Source: Plumapathes pennacea
Lineage: Eukaryota > Cnidaria > Anthozoa > Antipatharia > Myriopathidae
Reading direction: 5' to 3'
NCBI GenBank assembly: GCA_964036295.1
Contig: OZ038467.1
Span: 23,130,170-23,194,169, forward strand
DNA: 64,000 bases
Below, one piece after another: positions 1,606 to 53,500 of this stretch; positions within the stretch are counted from its first letter, which is position 1; every line of letters starts with the position of its first letter. The notes beneath the pieces were generated by a model. The model was not told the DNA's origin, did no database searches, and saw nothing but the letters and a program-made list of their open reading frames with translations. The translations under genes and the position numbers were made by a program.

Positions 1606-3182
1606 GGAATTTAATCAGAACAAAACCAAATTACTGGATTTTTGAAGATTTTTTCTCGGTTTTCGCCTGATAAAGAAACCTACAATTTGTCTGATTTATC
1701 TGCTAGTCACAGTTGTTAATGGGTAAAATGGTTTAAAAACCCGCCCCCACACGAAAAGAGAATATCTGGTGGCCACCGTCATTGTTGCCAGCTGGCCAAT
1801 CAGGTTAGATTTTCTATTTTCTAATATAGTTAACTACCGTGTTCATGATCAAACGAACTACTGTGTCGGATTTGTAAGCGGGCTCCCGAAATCTAAAATA
1901 AATATGGTGACAACAGAGATGTGTAATTACTTCCAGCTGGACTCTTTAGTGTTACCACCCAAGTACATTTTTGCAGTAAAGTCTCTAATCAGATGAAGAA
2001 TACACTCTTTTGGATAGTAATATGCAAAAGAATGTTACATATAACTTGATACTGTAATGCGCGAGCATTAGGTGCTAGCAAGTATTGAGTTGAGTTCGTT
2101 AATCGAATGTAATGCGCGAGCGTTAGGCGTTCACGTGTGTAAGTTTAGTCCGTTTGTTATCCGTTAAGTGTTAGCGTATGTAGTAAAGTCCGTTAAAGTG
2201 GCGACTGATAGCGAATCGGTTAGCGTGTGTCTAGTATAAAAGGGATCACAAGCCGTTGTGGTACGAGTTTGTACGGGAGTTTTTACGAGAATTCCGTATG
2301 AGTCATTTTGTATGAGTCGACGCACTGTTGAGAGGTTAATACAGTTGGACGTTGTTGAAGCTCTGTTTCCTGTGTTTGTGGACCCTGGGTACGTTACAAT
2401 ACAAAGTCTATCATAATTTAAAATATCACAGTAGTGAGTATATTTTTCGTCATACAATTGACAAAATAGCTCGTTTGATTTGTCTAATTTGATGAGTTCG
2501 TTTGCTAAACAATGGCAGTTTATTATCTGGACTGCAAATTTGATAAATTTGGGAATGCGGACATTTATAAAATGCGAATATGAACATTTTTGTCAGAGTG
2601 TACCCGTCAACACGTTTGATAATCGGTACATGTTAGTATAAATAGCTAATTAAATCAATCTGTTTCCTGTTTTCACTGATAGCTGCGACTCAGAGTTTTG
2701 CTTCATTTCAATTCTCTTCTTTTGTCGGGAAAAAAAATGAAAGGATCTCTTTTCAACCCTCGACATGTTACCCTCGACTTTCGACATGGACCCTCGTACA
2801 CGCTAAACGGTTTGTTGATAAGATCTCGAGTTAAAAGCTTTGACTGTCAAGATGATCAGTTATTTTTTAATGAGTTATACCACTGATGTATATTGCTTTA
2901 AAGGTCAATTGTATTACATAATCTCTCGTTCAATAACAAACCGGATCTTTAGTGAATGAATCTATAAACCAAATCAATTAACTAAATCAATAGCATATGC
3001 GCACATCGTTTCTCGTATTTTGGCCAAACCGTGCTTTCATTAAAATTGGGCATTAACATTACATTAGGAGGAGGGGTGGGGCACAGTTTTGGTTGGGGCT
3101 CAACTTCAAAATGTATACTGTTTCTTTATTGGAGGGAGAGGGGGGGGGGGAGGGGGTGGTTAACAAAAAGATTCATGGTTAC
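1606..3182. other. Spacer between inverted minisatellite arrays
   Basis: About 1.6 kb with no convincing gene. It contains GCGCGAGC-rich short repeats around 2059-2125 and TATA-like motifs at about 2235 and 2636. Small ORFs (1769-1996, 2164-2457 minus, 2698-2886) lack domains. If the flanking arrays are the arms of a foldback element, this would be its non-coding core. Confidence 0.4.
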
Positions 3183-3740
3183 AGATTCCTGGTTCCTGGT
3201 TTCCCGTTCCCAGATGCCCCGTTCCGGGTTCTCGGATTCCCGGTTCCTAGGTTCCGGTTCCCAGGTTCCGGTTCCTAAGTTCCCGGTTCCCAGGTTCCCG
3301 GTTCCCAGTTCCCGGTTCCCGGGTTCCCGGGTTCCCGGGTTCCCGGGTTCCCGGGTTCCCGGGTTCCCGGGTTCCCGGGTTCCCCGGTTCCAGGTGACCG
3401 GTTTTCAGGTTCCCGGTTTCCAGGTTTTCGGTTTCCAGGTTTCCGGTTTCCAGGTTTCCAGTTCCCAGGTTCCCGGTTCCCAGGTTCCCGGTTCCCAGGT
3501 TCCCGGTTCCCAGGTTCCCGGTTCCCAGGTTCCAGGTTCCGGTTCCCGGTTCCCAGGTTCCCGGTTCCCGGTTCCCGGTTCCCGGTTCCTGGTTTTCAGG
3601 TTCCGGTTTCCCGTTCCCGGTTCTCAGTACCCCGGTTCTCAGTATCCCGGTTCTCAGTATCCCGGTTCTCAGTATCCCGGTTCTCAGTATCCCGGTTCTC
3701 AGTATCCCGGTTCCCTGTTCTCGGTTCCCGGGTTCCCGCT
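3183..3740 (-). repeat. GGTTCCC minisatellite array (right arm, inverted)
   Basis: Reverse-complement counterpart of the 1285-1605 array. Subfamilies follow in order: GGGTTCCC units, GGTTTCCAG units, GGTTCCCAGGTTCCC units, and a block of ATCCCGGTTCTCAGT units at its distal end. It is followed by GTTTTAAACATAGCC, the inverted match to the sequence preceding the left array. The long ORFs on both strands are low-complexity artefacts. Confidence 0.9.
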
Positions 3741-3802
3741 GCCATGTTTTAAACATAGCCCCGACATGTGAAGAAGGAAGTAAAGGTTTAGCGGAAGTGT
3801 AA

Positions 3803-4293
3803 AGCCCCATGCACACGAGCAAGTTTTCTATGACAAGTTTTCTGCGACAAGTTTTTTTTGCTCGTGTACATGAGAAAATTTGGGCAAATTTTCTGTAACA
3901 AATGCATTTGCTGAAAAGCTAGCGTGCTAGCTTTTTTATGACAAGGGAAACTTGTCACATGTGAAATTTGCTCGTGTACACGAAAACTTGTCAAAGTTTT
4001 TCGGAAAACCTTAGTTCCCATGTCTTCATTTTGCGAGCGTGTTCGCACGGTCAAGATGGTGGCATCCACAACATTGACAACACAGTCTTTGAATTAGCAA
4101 TATAATGCAATTAGTCTCTTACTGGAAGATTTGAGATCACGCGAAAAGTTTATGGAACTCCAAGTCAGAAGGAAAAGAAACAACGAAAGTTTGTTAAAAA
4201 ACTTGTTAAAAGAAAATTGCTCGACCGTATACACGAGCAAATCATTTGTCACAGAAAACTTGTCATAGAAAACTTGCTCGTGTGCATAGGGCT
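3803..4293. mobile_element. PIF/Harbinger-like MITE, TAA target duplication
   Basis: A 491-bp element with about 40-bp terminal inverted repeats. The left starts AGCCCCATGCACACGAGCAA and the right ends with the complement of AGCCCTATGCACACGAGCAA. It is flanked by TAA at 3800-3802 and 4294-4296. A 3-bp TAA/TTA duplication is the hallmark of PIF/Harbinger insertions. The interior repeats GACAAGTTTTCT and CTCGTGTACA motifs. No transposase is present. A smaller TAA-flanked element lies at 40133-40298. Confidence 0.75.
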
Positions 4294-16500: not shown

Positions 16501-18871
16501 TGCAGTTTTGGAGAATTGGAATATTGGTATTGAGGCTTAAGATAAATAAGGATATTTCAATATAACCTGCAGTCTTGATAAGGCCTTTGCTTAAATTTAG
16601 ATCTCCTGCTTTTACAGGTCACCAGGATGCCTCCACAACCCAGGTAATCACATCACCAGAGGACCCACTTGTGAAGGAAGCTGCAGGTAAGTGAACTTTG
16701 GACAATTATTCTGCAATGTTTGTCTTGTGTGGATGGAAAGTCGATAAAAGGATTAAACCACCTTTTCTACTAGTAATGTATGAACTCCACTTATTCTTTT
16801 AAGCATGTACAAGACCTATGTAACAAAACCTGTCAAAGCCTTGTTTTAAAGAACACAATGTTACCCTACTCAAAATGGGGTGAGCTACCTTGTTTGTAAG
16901 CAGAGTTACATCAGTAGAATGGTGATGCAAAATATTGTAAGGTGTTGCAATCTTGCATCATCACTTGCAGTAGTCAGACATTTGCATCTTAAACATTTGT
17001 TTCTTTTTATGAGCATCCTTTTCCTACTTATTGATGAATTTTAATTGCACGGTTTCTTTGTAATGTTTTATGTGACAAACTTCTTTCTTCTCCTAGCTTT
17101 TCTGAAGGAGCAATACAGGACAGGAGAAGCAGATATTAACCCCCTGCCTTGGAACGAAGATTGGCAGTTGTCTCTGGACAAAATCTACACCAAACTACAA
17201 ATGGTCAGCAAGGAGAGGGAGAGATCGCATAACCGAACCGAAGATCCCTGCGACATGCACGAAATATTCAAATCGCACAAAGAATGCCGCAAAGAAAAAC
17301 CAAGAGTAGTTCTTGTCGAGGGAAAACCCGGGATTGGGAAGACAACGTTTACCCAGAAACTAACGTACGACTGGTCCAGGGAAAAGATAAAGGCTAGCGA
17401 ATCATTCCCTGATATCGAGATCCTCCTGAAGCTAAAATGCAGAGATCTAAAACGCGAAGAGCGTTCACCTGCTGTTGCTGACATTCTAAAGAAAGCCATT
17501 ACTGATCTGCTTCCACGCGATCGGCCAGATCTCAGAGATGCCCTGTTCAGATACATGAGAGAAGCGAATTCTGGTGTCCTTATGCTCCTCGATGGCTTGG
17601 ACGAGCTTCCTCGAGAGATCGATCTGTTTCCACTGATCAGAGGAGAGATTCTCTCTAACCTTCATCTTCTGCTTACAAGTCGAGACAACCCAAAACTACG
17701 AAAGTATTGCGACAGCCTTTTCCAGATCATTGGATTCACTTTGGAAGACGCGAAGTCCTACATTCTTCAGTTCTTCAAGAAGAACCCAGAAAATGGCCAA
17801 AAGCTCCTGAAACGAATTGATGCCCGAAGCAAAGATGGTGCGCTCCTTCGAGAAATGACTCACAGCCCGCTGAACACGACTCTTCTCTGTGCTGTCTGTC
17901 AGGAAACAGATGGCCAGCTGCCTTCGCACACAACTCAACTGTACCAAAAGATTATTTGGTGTATTCTGAAAATCTACTACAAGAAGAAAGCCCAAGATCC
18001 CCCCGTTGACATACTGGCGAAACATGAAGAAGACCTTGCCGCTCTCGGTCGTTTGGCTCTGCAAGGGCTTCAAAATGACCAACTTCACTTCAGTGAAGAC
18101 GACCTTCACGCCGAAGACCGCGCGACGACAATTTTGGATTGTGGATTCCTCTCAAAAGCAACAAGTGATTCAATTTTCAATCCTCGCTCAACGTATCAAT
18201 TCCTTCATAAGACATTGCAGGAATTCTTTGCTGCGTTAAATTTGCAGAAGCAGTCTTTGTCAGGTAACGAAGCTTATCTAGAATATTTTAGTGAGACTAC
18301 AGGTGATGGGTTTTTTGATAATTTTAAGTTCAAACAGGTAGCGATATTCCTTGCTGGTCTGATGAGTCAAAACTCCGAGGCGGGAGAAATTTGTGTTCGT
18401 CTAGTTCGCTCTCTCACACAGAACATTTCAAATACTGATGATTGTTCTAGTTTTCTTTACATATGCGATGTAATCCGTGAAAACGTCAGCGTCGACTTAG
18501 AAGAAGATTTACATTCAGCTGTCGTCAGCAGTTTCACTTGGGAGAGACTGGTACTGAACGGCGAGCGGCTTGATGAGAATTCAGTTGAATATCGACTTGT
18601 GTGTCAAGTATTGGAGAGAAACGGACCACTGGAATGGTTATATTTGGGCTTCAACGAGATAAAAGATATAAGTAAGCTAAGTAAATGTATTGTGAGAAAT
18701 TCAACACTGAAGTATTTATATTTGTTGAATAACCCGCTCCTTCATACAGGTGTTCCTGCACTCGCTAAAAATCTCCAACACAACAAAACTCTAGTAGTGT
18801 TATTGTTGGACAAGAAGTGGAGCAACGAGTTAAAAGAACACAACACACACCTGAATATTGGATATTTTTAA
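10523..18871 (+). CDS. DEATH-NACHT NOD-like receptor (8 exons, 779 aa)
   Basis: Intracellular STAND-type innate immune receptor. The coding exons are 10523-10592, 12274-12545, 13645-13684, 14428-14493, 15073-15120, 16618-16686 and 17097-18871, after an untranslated start of the first ATG exon at 10511. All junctions are GT-AG and in phase. Exon 12274-12545 encodes a death domain (about residues 25-112; helices around SWKYLGIRLGL and ALAMLREWHNRM). Four small phase-1 exons form a polar linker. The large exon holds the NACHT: Walker A GKPGIGKTT (264-272), Walker B LMLLDGLDE (350-358), sensor LLLTSRD (379-385) and the FLHKTLQEFFAAL helix (557-569). Two or three degenerate leucine-rich repeats follow near the C terminus, fewer than is usual for NLRs. 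Death-domain pairing suggests signalling to caspase or adaptor partners. Exon boundaries are predicted by eye. Confidence 0.85.
10671..11025 (-). mobile_element. tRNA-derived SINE
   Basis: On the minus strand the head carries a tRNA-like pol III promoter: an A-box-like TGGTTAGCATGCCGG and a B box GGTTTGATTCC. The body ends in a conserved tail read on the plus strand as TTTATATAGCGCAAATT followed by TTCAAATGTGCTTTACAA, then a short ATC-repeat tail. Tails of this kind are widespread in marine invertebrate SINEs. It lies in the first intron of the NLR gene, antisense to it. Confidence 0.65.
11078..11309. mobile_element. Palindromic MITE, 232 bp
   Basis: The two halves are near-perfect reverse complements: it begins TTACCCTGGAAGCCAGAGG and ends with the complement of TTACCCTGGAAGCGAGAGG, with a short central turn near 11195. 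It is GC-rich, unlike the surrounding intron. The minus-strand ORF across it is not thought to be coding. Confidence 0.7.
15720..16267. mobile_element. Long palindrome in an NLR intron
   Basis: Two arms of about 265 bp are near-identical inverted copies meeting at about 15989, with a loop of only a few bases. The outer ends read TTTGGTACCACAGGCAGCCC on the left, and the right end complements TTTGGTACCAACACAGG. The whole unit sits in the intron between exons 15073-15120 and 16618-16686, so the pre-mRNA would carry a 265-bp hairpin. There is no ORF of note. Confidence 0.75.
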
Positions 18872-45012: not shown

Positions 45013-45707
45013 TTCCGCGCGGGCTGTTGCCAAAATGGGGACGGGGACGCGGGGACGTGACCTTGGGGACGTGGGGACGTGACCTTGGGGACGCGGGGAC
45101 GTGACCTTCAAAACAAAAACCCTTCTAACTCCCTTAGTTTTTCTCCTATTGGCTTGAAACTTTCACACAGAACAGAGAATTCGATTTATTCGAAGCGCTC
45201 ATAAAATTCAAGGCGTCTCGTGAACGGACGGGACAATCGTCGGATTGCAGGTTGACATGCTTATCTGCAGATTAAATTTGCGGGTCAAATATGCAGGTTA
45301 AATTTGCAGGTTAAATTTGCAGATCAAATTTGCAGGTTAAAATAAAAGTCCAATTAGTTGAAATACCTTCAATGCCAGCCTTAATAAAATCGTATTTCGC
45401 TCACGTTCGATGCACTTTTTTCGTGCTATTCGATTGGAGGTCATGCGACTTGGAGCACGCGTGAAAGCTAACGACGGTCTCGTGGCTATCTCTGTATGAC
45501 TTGAAGTGGCTTTTTAGGTTTATTCACGTTTTTGACCGTTTTGCGGGTAGCCTGTGAACAGGCTCTCTCTTTTTTACGGCCGCGCGGAGGCTGGGAGAGA
45601 GTTTGACGGAGGGGAGAGCCTGTGAACACTGCTATCAAACCGCTGTTCCATGATACCAGAATCTGGTATCAGGCTCTGATTGGTCAGATCACAGATCATA
45701 AAAAAAC

Positions 45708-47711
45708 ATGGCGTCTTCGTTTTCCGATTCAGTGTTTGAACAAGCTTTAAGCGATTCAATGCGACAGTTTCCTCATATTTCTACTCTGAAAAAAGAGCAG
45801 AAACTGTGCTTGCAAGCTGTGGCAAAGAAAAGGGATGTGTTTGGCGTTCTCCCGACCGGGTTCGGAAAGAGTTTGATATTTCAGCTCCTCCCGCTTGTTT
45901 TGAAAGCGCTTTGGAACCGAGAAGAACGAGCAACAGTCCTAATTGTGACACCGTTGGTTTCCATAATGAAGGACCAAGTGGAAGAGATGACGCGTTTGGG
46001 TCTTAAAGCACATGCCATAGGTTTGGGAGAAAAACGAGCGGATGAAGATCTTCGTGCTGCGTTCGATGTCGACCTGATTTACGGCAGCCCAGAAAGCTGG
46101 TTGTCAGAAGAGTGGTCCAGGGAACTTAAAGATGGACAACTCGGCAAACAAATCGTTACTTTGGTGGTAGACGAAGTACATGCAGTTTCAGCCTGGTAAG
46201 AGATACGATGGTTCATGTTTTTGGAATATAGCTTTCTGTCCACCCTCCAACTGATATTCTCGCGTGAGATAATTTACGAAAAGTTTCACTGCGACATTAT
46301 TTAGTGAAACGAACAAGTTCTTCGATAATTATGCCTGCCTTTTCGTTTTTAAATATACTGATTTTTTATTCTTTCGTTCATTGATAGGGGAGAAGTTTCC
46401 GTTAACAGAAAAGGTAAGAAAGCCCAGCCATTTAGGGAAGCCTTTGCCAGAGTGAAGAACTTGCGATCTTTCTTGCCCGGAGTCCCTGTTCTTGCCTTAA
46501 CAGCGTCAGTTAAAGTGAAAGACCGATCGGCTTTGTGGAAGTCTTGTGGAATGATCAGTCCACTTGTAGTCAATGTGTCCCCAAATAAAGATAACATTTT
46601 TCTGGGTTTTCAACACATTACAGTGGAGGCAGATGCGCTAAAACATATCAAGTGGGTTGCCGCAATGATTGAGAAGGAGCAGGAGAGAACCCCACAAACA
46701 ATTATCTTTTGCAAGACATTCAATGACATTGCCAGTGTAATCAGTTACTTACTGATGAACCTGAGAGGCAAAGCATTTTTGGAAAAAGAGGGGCAGAAGG
46801 TGGCATTACTTGGGGTTTACCATGCAAAAACATGGGAAACTCAGAAAACAAGAACTGAGGAGGATTTCAAGGGAAGTGGCACGCAGAGAGTTGTTATTGC
46901 AACTAGTGCCCTTGGCATGGGTATAAATTTTTCAAACGTGAAATATGTTGTTCATTATGGCCCACCACGGACCACCACAGAAATTATTCAGCAAGCAGGC
47001 AGAGCTGGACGAAATGGGCAGCAAGCCTTCACCATTGTTTATGCTACTAACCGTCAGCTGTCTCAGTGTGACACAGATGTAAAGGAATTGTTCAAAAGTG
47101 GAACCTGTATGCGAGTGTGCCTGTATGGACATTTTGAGAAGTCTGTTTTGCCAAAGGAACCTGCACATTTCTGTTGCTCACTATGTAGAAGTAATTGCCA
47201 GTGTGCTGGAGATAGATCATGTGTTGCAGATGAATTGGAACATTTATCCTTAAGTAATGAAGAAAACTCTGTTCCACCAAGTAATATTGTCATTCCAAGC
47301 CGGGTATTGAATGAACTAGACAAGAGAGATCTTCGTCTTGCCTTGTTGGAACTCAAGGAGCAGTATTCGCTTGGAATTGTGTCATTATTTCATCAGGAAA
47401 CGAGCCATGGATTTACTGACAAACTGATTAATGACATCATTAATCATGCCAAACATATTTTCTGTGGCAAGTACCTAACAGAGAACCTGGCCATTTATTC
47501 ATCAAGACATGCAATTGATATCCTGGAAGTATTCCAGGAACTGTTTGATGATATTGACACTTTTGAACAGGAAATTGATGAACTGAACCTACTAAAGAAA
47601 CAACTTGCAGAGATTGAGAGCTACCTACTTTCCAGTTCAATTTCAAGTGATGTTCTCGATGACAGAGAAGAAGTGGACATGGTGGTTCCAGAATATGACC
47701 TGGATTTCTAA
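45708..47711 (+). CDS. RecQ-like ATP-dependent DNA helicase (603 aa)
   Basis: Superfamily 2 3'-5' DNA helicase of the RecQ family, which unwinds recombination and replication intermediates. Two exons, 45708-46195 and 46388-47711, with a GT-AG intron and an intact frame. Motifs: LPTGFGKS (motif I, 48-55), LIVTPLVSIMKDQ (Ia), VVDEVHAV (II, DEVH instead of the usual DEAH), LALTASVK (III, about 198-205), TIIFCKTF (IV, 267-274), ATSALGMGINF (V), IIQQAGRAGRNG (VI, about 362-373), then a Cys-rich zinc-binding segment (CMRVCLYGHFEK and HFCCSLCRSNCQC, about 403-435). No recognisable winged-helix RQC or HRDC domain follows; the C terminus is acidic and helical. The gene lies wholly between the inverted repeats of the 45022-48554 element. 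The start is the first ATG after the left arm. Confidence 0.85.
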
Positions 47712-47865
47712 ACCAAATGAACAGATAATTTAACAATGGATGGTCATTCGAGCGTGACGGGGCGGAACAGCGGTTTGATAGCAGTGTTCACAGGCTCTCC
47801 CCTCCGTCAAACTCTCTCCCAGCCTCCGCGCGGCCGTAAAAAAGAGAGAGCCTGTTCACAGGCTA

Positions 47866-48040
47866 TTTTGCGGGCAGTAGAAAGGATTTTCGGGTTTTGC
47901 CGCCATGTTTAGAGCAAGAAATCGTACGTGGGTGGGTGCCCCGGGGCAGCCCTTTGCTCTGCCCTGGGGTACCCCTCACGTATGATTTGCTGCTCCAAAC
48001 ATGGCGGCAAAACCCGAAATCCTTTCTACGGCCCGCAAAA
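47866..48040. repeat. Palindrome nested in the right inverted repeat
   Basis: TTTTGCGGGCAGTAGAAAGG and its near complement bound a 175-bp hairpin containing GGGTTTTGCCGCCATGTTT and its complement. The left arm of the transposon has only the undisturbed CCCGCAAAACGG site here, so the hairpin was gained in the right arm or lost from the left. Confidence 0.75.
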
Positions 48041-48780
48041 CGGTAAAAAACGTGAACAAACCTAAAAAGCCACTTCAAGTCATACAGAGATAGCCACGAG
48101 ACCGTCGGTAGCTTTCACGCGTGCTCCAAGTCGCATCGAACTGACCTCCAATCGAATAGCACGAAAAAAGTGCATCGAACGTGAGCGAAATACAATTTTA
48201 TTAAGGCTGGCATTGAAGGTATTTCAACTAATTGGACTTTTATTTTAACCTTTAAATTTGACCTTTAAATTTAACCTTTAAATTTAACCTGCATATTTGA
48301 CCTGCAAATTTAATCTGCACATAAACATGTCAACCTGCAATCCGCGGATTGTCCCGTCCGCTCAGGAGACGCCTTGAATTTTATGAGCGCTTCGAGTAAA
48401 TCGAATTCTCTGTTCTGTGTGAAAGTTTCAAGCCGATAGGAGAAAAACTAAGAGTGTTAGAAGGGTTTTTGTCTTGAAGGTCACGTCCCCAAGGTCACGT
48501 CCCCGCGTCCCCAAGGTCACGTCCCACGTCCCCGTCCCCATTTTGGCAACAGCCTTCCGCGCGGGTCCGACCGTGAACTGCGTGGGAACTGACTCCCCCG
48601 GTGGCAGAAACATTTTCAGTTCAGTATTTGCATACGAGCATTTAGGTTTTTTCCAGCAATACATAAGCCGGTCATATAAAACGCAGCGGCAGTGACTAAC
48701 AGTTTTACTTACTGTTGTTATTCATGGCTATTTTATAGTAACATAGAAATATCGTCTCATCACTTGTAATGCTAAACACA

Positions 48781-49640
48781 ATTGACATTGGCGGCGTAAG
48801 AACTCAGTTTTCCATCGGCATAATTTCCAGTTCCAAGTTTTTTGCTCGCTCCATTGTCTCGCCTAAACCTTTAGGCGAGACAGTAGCGCGACGTCACTGC
48901 ATTCCAGACATATTCCAGCACTGATTTCTCGGGCCTCGGGAATGCATGTGATGGCCGTCTCGCTTTGCGTCTTCTACCTTCATTATTGAGCTCATTATTG
49001 CTAACCCAAATTACGCACGGCCACTCGGAGACAACCTTCAAGCTACTCACTGTCCTCTCCGCCAGTTTTATACGATTCTCCTTACATTTTTTTACACTGA
49101 CACAACATAAGTACCAGATCAGTTGGAAACTCGCACATCCCCCCCCCCCCCCCCCCCGGGCAACCCCCCGGGCATTTGAACTTTTCGATTTTCCGATGGT
49201 CAAATTCCCCACCCTCGGGCCTAAATGACTGTTCAAATGCCCCGGTTTAAGGCTGAATTTAGTGGTCAAATGCCCGGGGTATGCCCGGGGGGGGGGGGGG
49301 GGGGGGATGTGCGAGTTTCAAATTGATCGGTACATAAGTACCAGATCAGTTGGAAAGTTATTTATTTATTTATTGCAAGAGTGAGTAACAGCTGCTTTAT
49401 TTAGTGCTGCTTATACCAGAAATATTGTAATTTCTAATGCTAAACACGTTCACACTGGCGGCGTAATAACTCAGCTTTCCATCGGCACCATTTCCAGTTC
49501 CAGCCTAAACCTTTAGGCGAGACAATAGCTCGACGTCACTGCACGCAGTCAAAATGGCCGTCTCCATTTGCGTCTTAACTCGCTTCTTTTGCGCCATTTC
49601 AGCTCATTATTGATAACCCAAATTACACACAGCCACTCGG
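48781..49640 (+). repeat. Diverged direct duplication around a hairpin MITE
   Basis: About 48784-49040 and 49440-49645 are direct copies (TGGCGGCGTAA, CTTTCCATCGGCA or TTTTCCATCGGCA, AACCTTTAGGCGAGACA, GACGTCACTGCA, AACCCAAATTAC). Between them lies a hairpin element at 49111-49333. Confidence 0.6.
49111..49333. mobile_element. Hairpin MITE with C/G homopolymer shoulders
   Basis: The ends GTACCAGATCAGTTGGAAAC and the complement of GTACCGATCAATTTGAAAC enclose TCGCACATCC followed by a C run of about 19. The mirror image is a G run of about 20 followed by GGATGTGCGA. ATAA flanks both sides. A fragment of the same family core (AAGGCTGAATTCAGTGGTCA) occurs at about 25863. Confidence 0.6.
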
Positions 49641-50577: not shown

Positions 50578-53500
50578 CTAGTCCTCGGTGGGATCCATTT
50601 TTCTTTTCTTCCTTGGTGAAACCACGGATTCGTAGATGTCACACTTGGGACTTCGCAACTTGTATGCCCTGCTCTCTGCATCGTATGCAATGTCAATTGG
50701 CCATATCAAGCTGTTCACGGATTCTACCCAGGGCCGACAGCTGGTAATTTTCAACCTGAAGCAGTCTTCTTCTACCTCTTCGAACTCGGCCAGGATTGCC
50801 TCATCTCTGCCTGTGGAGAATCGAATAACTTTGGCAATGAAGATCACTGGATCCTGGCTGGTACTCTGTGGATCGACTAAGGCGACCAAATCTCCAACAG
50901 TTGGTTGAAGTTCATGTTCATCTTCGCTGTCTGACATTGGGTGGCTGCTGTCACCTGGCTTGCCTGGCTTGTCTGTATTGATGCAGTCACCAAACAATTC
51001 ATTCCCTGCCAACTGCGACAGAACTCCAAGTGCTTGCTCTGATCTCGCTGCATTTGTGAGATCCACGTAGCATTTCTCCTGTGTCTCTCGGGAGTGACGC
51101 ATGACTCGAGAAAGGCTGTTGCAAAATGCCTCGTTGGCACAGAGCTCTGGGTTGGCGATGAACTTTGTTGCGATTGCGTGTCTTATACTGTTGGCAGCAC
51201 CCCTCTTCCCGGTCCCGGACTCGATGATTTGACTAAGGTACTTGGAGAAGGCAGAAGCTGATCCAAATTCTTGGCCCCTGGAGTTGACAAAATAGTAAGC
51301 ATGATCACTCCCCAGCAGCAACTTTTGGCGGAACTTTCCGGCATACTGCCTGAGGTAATATGCAATCGGACTGCTGTATGCCACTGGGACTTTAAAAGGG
51401 CCATAAGTTTTGTCTGTCTTGTATCGGGTCAACAGCAGTTCTATCGAGCCGTCATCATAAAATGCAATTACATTCTCCCGTTCTGGGGGGCCCACCGGAA
51501 CAATGTCACCAGCTGGGCAGTCTTCCTCCACTACAAGCGTGCGCACCTCGTGTGCCCTTGGGACAAAATGCAGGTACACCAGCAGCAGCACCAAATCGTG
51601 TAGTTTGCGTGCCTTTTGAAGGGTGTTTCTCTCCTCTTCGAATGAGGACTTTAGCTCTCTGCACAGTTCCAAGATTTCTGCGTAGATCAGGTTCTGTTTG
51701 GGCTTACAACCCACCCCCTCCCTGTCCTTCACCTTGTCAAGGCGGGCCGCCTTTTCGCACTGAAGTCGCATGTTTCTCAAGGCAGCGAGGGGCTCTGACT
51801 GGTCTCGTTCGTGGGCCGGTGTGTCTCTCAGGACGAACAGCAGACCTTTCTCCAAGCCATGGATGTTACGACTGATTGTGACTGCCTTCAGGTGACAGAC
51901 TTCTGTCAAGTACGTGGCATAGTCCTCCAGGAGGGGCCTATTCTCAAGGTGGCTAAGTTTGGGCTCCAGGCAACGACAGTGCTTGATGTAGTAGAAATAC
52001 ATCTTGAGACGCTCGATGATTTTGTCCATGGTCGATTGTGCAAGGCCTGGTCCTCTTCTCCTGCCCTCAAAGTTTGCAGTATAGAAGTGAGTTAACTCTA
52101 TGAGGTCTCTTTTCAGGGACAAAGACATCTCCTTGTCCGGTATGGTGTGTCCGATACGTGATTTGGGCTTGCTTTCTGGTGATGGACTCACAGGAGTGTC
52201 TGCAATCTCATCCTCCAAATCACTCTGGCAATCGTCTTCGTTGCTCCGTTGCTCAATTCCTTCCAATTGACTGTCCAACTGGTAGCAGGGTGGGGATTTT
52301 GGACTTCCACAGGCTACTTGTTGCGCCGGTGGTTGCGGCAACTGCAGTGCTGTTGCTGTGGAGGGAATTCTCCAGGGCTCTCCGACAGTTGGCAGCAGCA
52401 TGGCTGGAGTACTGGCAGAAACTGTGCTGTAACCCATACTGTTGAACCCCGGGTTAGTTGCAACTGCACGAATGCGGAGGTCAGGCAATCTATCTCTGCT
52501 TCGGTCAAGTAACTGTTGTGCATGTTTTGGCTTTACCAGGAAAAAGGGTTTCCCTTTCTCTTCTGGGACAATGCACTTTAAAATTGCGTGTTCTTTGTCG
52601 GTGCATCTTAACTTTGCAATCTCTAGCCGGTGAACCCAGCCGCTTAAAGTGCCTCTCGGTAAGTTTTGTAAATAGCGTGCTCTCAGCTGGTTAAAACAGA
52701 CGTACGGCCCATCCTCTCGACAAATTTCTACAAGTCCGGGGAACAGGGGTGACGGAATTATCTGGAATTCCTGAAAATTGATTAAAAATATGTATATGGT
52801 TGGTATTGAAACACAAATAGACTGCATATAATGACATTATTATTATAACATTGTTATACTGTAGCAGTTATTACTGTTGTTTTCTGTTGTTTACTAGTAC
52901 GTATTTCGATTAATCCAGTGCAGTCACTCAGCTAAATTTCCAATTATTTTAAACATCACCAAAAAAAAAAACAGATCTTGTATTTCCACTGACCCCCGGC
53001 AATCTTACAATTTGATATAAGGAGGAATAAATAATTTATTGTATTGTATTTAATAATGACTACAACTTTAGATTTTCAATCCTAGCCAATGATACATGAA
53101 ATGACTGACAATTCAGTCATCCTGTTGATAGAATGAATTTGCAGATAAATCCTTGTTGGACAAGAATGGTAAAGTGTGACATCATTTTGCAAAACTTTCA
53201 CATTCGAACCTCTAGACCACACCATGCAATTTTCACAGCTGATGAGCCAATTTTTTGTGTGTGAACATTTTTCAGTTTTTTTTTATCTGTTGAATTTTAA
53301 TATATTTTTTAAATTTTTTATTCTTATTTTTTATTTATATTTTTCTATGGCAGCAATGTTTTTAACATACATTTTGTCATTTTGTGTCGGACGTGTGGGT
53401 GTGTAAATGAGAAGGATTTTTTTCTTTTCTTTTTTTTTGGGGGGGGGGGGGGGGGGGGGGAAGGAGTGAATTAAATCCACGATTTCAGAACATTATATTT

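Follow-up and report, generated by a model that had tools for sequence, protein, structure and literature searches.

The AcademH lineage of the Academ DNA transposons was reportedly set out by Kojima in 2020, in Mob DNA 11:15. PMC10045372 and PMC10799480 present AcademH as helicase-encoding DNA transposons of animals and fungi; in the former their target duplications are given as 9 or 10 bp, and AcademH and AcademX are said to differ in duplication length in a way that seems related to their helicase and nuclease. According to PMC9587614, a RecQ helicase is also encoded by KolobokH and, on the complementary strand, by Kolobok-1_CCri of a red alga. The locus compared with these systems here is a RecQ-like helicase gene of the anthozoan Plumapathes pennacea, contained in a stretch of 64,000 nucleotides (contig OZ038467.1, positions 23,130,170 to 23,194,169; hereafter the window, which is C6:23130170-23194169 of the genome searched, comprising 290 Mb in 24 contigs). 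An earlier interpretation, made from the letters of the window and hereafter called the sequence-only reading, had placed this gene inside a single long-armed transposon. Very probably, two transposons are present, one within the other; the helicase is a gene of the inner transposon, and the presumed transposase gene of that transposon was lost by internal deletion.

The long inverted arms around the gene were resolved into two nested inverted-repeat pairs with a boundary at 45548 / 47865. They had been described as arms of 640 and 790 bp, and inverted arms are indeed present, with 94-100% complementarity in stretches of 349, 105, and 102 nt, far beyond chance; what had been overlooked was the boundary between the outer arms and an inner pair of 102 bp. 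The outer termini, GGCTGTTGCC..., are located at 45022 and 48554, and each is bordered by the 9-bp target duplication TTCCGCGCG (left, 45013-45021; right, 48555-48563), an identical flank on both sides that had been correctly recognized. The left arm of the outer element extends up to the inner insertion (45022-45547, + strand), and the rest of the element, namely the left-arm remainder, the loop, and the right arm, is found at 47875-48554 (+), which matches other outer copies; within it, 47875-48031 is arm and loop material and 48032-48554 (-) is the right arm (inverted pairs I1, I2, I9, and I12). When 45022-45547 and 47875-48554 were joined, a fold-back element of 1,206 bp was obtained. The inner element (45548-47865, +; 2,318 bp) has its own terminal inverted repeats, the left one, TAGCCTGTGAACAGG..., at 45548-45649 (+) forming a perfect 102-bp pair with the right one at 47764-47865 (-), with the first mismatch between opposite ends at base 103, and it is flanked by its own target duplication TTTTGCGGG, identical at 45539-45547 and 47866-47874.

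Genome searches scored best candidates only, and copy numbers are therefore lower bounds. In the search with 45022-45650, for which the best 40 of 154 candidates were scored, only the two matches of the window itself, among the 64 listed, passed query position 526 (corresponding to 45547), and the inner ends of three full copies of the inner element (described below) were not among the matches listed. The sequence-only reading had suggested examining whether other copies of the arms carry the helicase. The inner unit was absent from all nine other outer copies examined, and each of the 12 aligned sites contained a single TTTTGCGGG, their identity to the window flanks joined without the inner unit being 91.5-98.3% (three of the nine copies give two sites each, the arms being mirror images). 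On the basis of its own ends, its own 9-bp duplication, and the empty sites in other outer copies, the inner unit is therefore a nested insertion.

The left end of the inner element (160 bp) was found at 99-100% identity in four places in the genome, namely the window and three others, designated L029, L030, and L031. These three are full copies of 7,607-7,609 bp that share at least 99.89% identity among themselves and are 99.95-100% identical to the inner element of the window; the latter is 100% identical to L030 1-2175 and 7463-7607 and represents an internal-deletion derivative of this 7.6-kb transposon. Comparison with the full copies placed the deletion junction, which has a 2-bp overlap, at 47721-47722 (+). 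The 5,289 bp that are gone begin approximately 10 bp past the stop codon of the helicase gene and include the complete coding sequence of a second gene, which encodes a protein with a DUF6589 domain, while the helicase is left whole. Only the window copy was found to have this deletion, the other three full left ends belonging to the full copies. In all three full copies both reading frames are open, with the helicase located between the terminal repeats, and the window copy and all three encode one and the same helicase protein. The target duplications are 9 bp in L029 and L030 and 8 bp in L031, and the sequence of the outer arms was unmatched in the fetched flanks of the three copies. Seven near-identical short end pieces of the inner family, mostly inverted pairs with a spacing of 60-95 kb, were also observed at G000:C3:11456167-11916658, and an eighth lies approximately 100 kb ahead of this group at 11353014; the group has the appearance of a segmental array.

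The second gene of the full copies lies on the strand opposite to the helicase gene and is convergent with it. Its eight exons were predicted by hand, and the resulting protein of 1,124 residues matched DUF6589 with E = 1.1e-43. The frame is open in the three full copies with the same exon borders, and two or three residues differ from L030. In Pfam, no transposase name is attached to DUF6589; from the place of the gene in the element, we infer that its product is the transposase of the inner element. A protein search with this product yielded one match, and a search with that match yielded two more. The genome search gave 44 DUF6589 matches, which formed 32 clusters when same-strand matches within 6 kb were grouped. 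A helicase among the 79 matches listed (best 73 of 325 candidates scored) was located no more than 8 kb from 21 of the 32 loci, and the two genes were arranged tail-to-tail in all 21. Over 1,000 random placements, a helicase lay nearby for 0.13 of the 32 loci on average and for no more than 2 in any one placement; the size of contig C7 was assumed, which affects random placement only, as no DUF6589 locus is located there. Among six DUF6589 loci that were fetched, four had a helicase within the fetched 10 kb, a fifth (L047) had one at 6.1 kb in the genome-wide list, and L049 had none. Two loci, L044 and L045, represent diverged families whose presumed transposase is 23-35% identical to that of the inner element in aligned pieces, and each has its own inverted ends and an exact 9-bp duplication.

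The RecQ-like gene itself is intact, as the sequence-only reading had stated, and encodes 603 residues in two exons separated by a GT-AG intron. Exon 1 (45708-46195, +) contains motifs I, Ia, and II, and exon 2 (46388-47711, +; stop codon at 47709-47711) contains motifs III-VI and a Cys cluster, all identified by eye; domain matches were obtained to DEAD (1.6e-18) and Helicase_C (1.4e-19). The helicase core is similar to that of host and bacterial RecQ helicases (WRN, BLM, RECQL1/4/5, and RecQ). The nearest solved chains, RecQ and WRN, scored at most 99.6 bits, whereas the closest named protein, from the stony coral Oculina patagonica, scored 800 bits at 67% identity. The domains PF16124, PF09382, and PF00570 were found on none of the 46 best protein matches of the helicase; PF16124 was present on most of the lower-ranked matches, which are mainly bacterial, and on P0059, a Dendronephthya protein placed together with the helicase of L044. 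A tree was built from 22 helicases, and in it one well-supported branch (100/99) separated the element-linked proteins and uncharacterized proteins of corals, lancelets, fish, and bivalves from three bacterial RecQ proteins, and the L044 helicase grouped with Dendronephthya Q1-like and Hydractinia proteins, apart from the helicase of the window. As a test of element origin this tree is weak, its 22 sequences including no host RecQ of this genome.

The intron (46196-46387, +) directly follows motif II, and its position is shared with the helicases of L044, L045, and L046. In each case it lies after the same tryptophan, and this arrangement was observed in three families, that of the window, L044, and the near-identical L045 and L046 counted as one; the intron of a further family, L048, could not be read. 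The retained intron had earlier been regarded as a sign of capture at the DNA level, but helicases of diverged elements have it too, and it is therefore no evidence of recent capture of a host gene. Together, the convergent pairing with DUF6589 genes and the intron position common to three element families argue that the helicase is the element's own gene. Approximately 20 dispersed pieces related to exon 1 (query positions approximately 9-147, 41-47% identical) were observed as well, for example at C4:6133175, C2:11876850, C11:1665419, and C9:2325039; they are of nearly equal length, over half contain two or three TGA, and they perhaps constitute a family carrying only that part of the gene.

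In the outer element we see a fold-back element that is probably Mutator-like and non-autonomous; this superfamily assignment follows from exact 9-bp duplications and from a Mutator-like element (MULE) type of open reading frame in a long copy whose ends are the same. Exact 9-bp duplications, a length within the 8-10 bp typical of Mutator-like elements, were found in the window copy and in all seven outer copies in which both ends were recognized, among nine loci examined, and the movement of a long-armed element with a duplication of this length is thus as had been proposed. The long copy, L043, measures 8,886 bp, has an exact 9-bp duplication, and contains an open reading frame that matched PF10551 (MULE-like) at 2.7e-4 and 21.8 bits, below the cut-off of 27.6. 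Assignment to either MULE or Merlin had been proposed, and the former is probable. Merlin is less likely, with the MULE-like reading frame in L043 and no other transposase family among the 5 of 12 listed L043 reading frames that were scanned. Beside that frame, at L043:5397-7832, pieces of a reverse transcriptase were noted (PF00078 at 6.6e-5, below the cut-off), which are probably another nested insertion. Both outer arms of the window copy contain a 13-bp tandem repeat (45263-45353 and 48224-48325) that differs between the arms, and the region just to the right of the element (48782-49576) contains direct and inverted repeats (D4, D6, D8, I5, and I14) and long C/G runs, and is perhaps another element.

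Pack-MULEs are known from plants, and the outer element resembles Mutator-like elements and Pack-MULEs in its long inverted arms, its exact 9-bp duplications, and the MULE-like reading frame of its long relative. The helicase does sit between arms bordered by a 9-bp duplication, and a Mutator-like element that took up a host RecQ gene as cargo between its arms could be envisaged, which is how the sequence-only reading had understood the locus. This explanation is highly improbable, since the unit bearing the helicase has perfect ends and a duplication of its own and is also found at three sites whose fetched flanks show no match to the outer arms, its helicases pair with DUF6589 genes, and the other outer copies lack the helicase and show empty sites. 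Gene capture by the outer element was rejected as contradicted by these empty sites and by the free-standing full copies; the helicase is not captured cargo, having arrived with its own element, and the MULE profile match of the long relative is itself below the cut-off. A different proposal accepts the nesting and regards the helicase-only copy as a selected satellite, whose helicase would act in trans to aid sibling copies or would serve the host. The position of the deletion, which removed the entire DUF6589 coding sequence from a point so close behind the helicase stop codon, and the identity of the window helicase to those of the full copies speak for such a satellite, but a recent random deletion accounts for the identity equally well and a single copy with this deletion was found; selection appears improbable. 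Also improbable is the broader proposition that DUF6589 and a convergent RecQ-like helicase form a widespread two-gene transposon system of animals which cannot move without its helicase, and in which deletion copies with the helicase alone, like that of the window, donate it in trans.

The affiliation of the inner transposon, with its helicase gene and its deleted partner, was considered by comparison with the helicase-bearing systems introduced above. It is most like AcademH, with the helicase inside the element in three of three full copies and 9-bp duplications at the window copy, L029, L030, L044, and L045, a length that falls within the range given for AcademH (PMC10045372); it differs in the 8-bp duplication of L031 and in that the window copy is without the presumed transposase gene. 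The element is designated AcademH-like and is not counted as a proven member. It could alternatively lie outside Academ, as a relative of Kolobok or in a separate superfamily with DUF6589 as its defining feature. The RecQ on the complementary strand of Kolobok-1_CCri (PMC9587614) resembles the opposite-strand layout observed here, and DUF6589, which carries no transposase name in Pfam, is a word that was not found in the literature searched. The helicase of the inner element is, however, a separate gene on the opposite strand with coral relatives when set beside KolobokH as defined in PMC9587614; this difference concerns KolobokH and not Kolobok as a whole, the red algal Kolobok-1_CCri having its RecQ on the complementary strand. 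The inner element has 9-bp duplications, which fit AcademH. The target of Kolobok elements, moreover, is TTAA. A position outside Academ is thus regarded as unlikely, although clearly less so than either capture or selection. No description of the inner-element family was found in the literature searched, outside which the key AcademH paper lies, and absence from print is not claimed.

Several observations weigh against the interpretation of the locus as a helicase-bearing transposon nested in a Mutator-like element. Eight places with two ends of the inner family gave three exact 9-bp duplications and one exact 8-bp duplication, the latter in a full copy, while two others had 9 bp with one mismatch and two had no duplication. 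The identification of the DUF6589 protein as a transposase is inferred only, and the predicted structure of its Stylophora relative P0121, modeled from three sequences, was unusable (predicted local distance difference test score, 33.5). Eleven of the 32 DUF6589 loci were without a listed helicase within 8 kb, although one of the 11, L044, has a helicase by tblastn. Finally, the MULE match in L043 is under the Pfam cut-off (21.8 against 27.6 bits).

The following history is proposed for the nested elements. A fold-back element of approximately 1.2 kb, probably Mutator-like, inserted with a 9-bp duplication, and a two-gene element with 102-bp ends, encoding a putative DUF6589 transposase and a convergent RecQ-like helicase, later entered its left arm with a 9-bp duplication of its own. 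Before or after the latter event, the 5,289-bp deletion, with its 2-bp overlap, removed DUF6589 and spared the helicase; cut-and-paste elements commonly acquire internal deletions like this one when gap repair is interrupted. The transposase of the full copies may bind the 102-bp ends, excise the element, and insert it with the 9-bp stagger that is reflected in the duplications. Participation of the helicase in the movement of its carrier, which had been offered as an alternative to cargo status, is plausible, though for the inner element; its role may be to unwind DNA of the element or of its flanks while the element is excised or inserted, during strand transfer, or in gap repair. For movement, the window copy would depend on transposase provided in trans, and it could still produce helicase.

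Three other features of the window were noted. An open frame of 608 residues at 17045-18871 (+) has matches to NACHT (1.1e-21) and to the NOD2 winged helix (3.7e-5), and corresponds to an NLR-type immune receptor gene or a piece of one. Approximately 2 kb from the nested elements, at 50578-52827 (-), there is an intact open frame of 749 residues with no Pfam match at 0.001, whose C-terminal half, by eye, we take to resemble a Crypton-type tyrosine recombinase. Open frames that overlap on both strands at 3031-3822 have highly repetitive translations and are probably a tandem DNA repeat, not a gene.

Mobile DNA of the inner element's general kind is already known, and at this locus a tempting story of gene capture is replaced by proof of a nested insertion. 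Because the full copies are nearly identical to each other, this helicase-bearing transposon was probably active recently in the genome of Plumapathes pennacea, and it provides a starting point for asking why such an element retains a RecQ-like helicase of its own.
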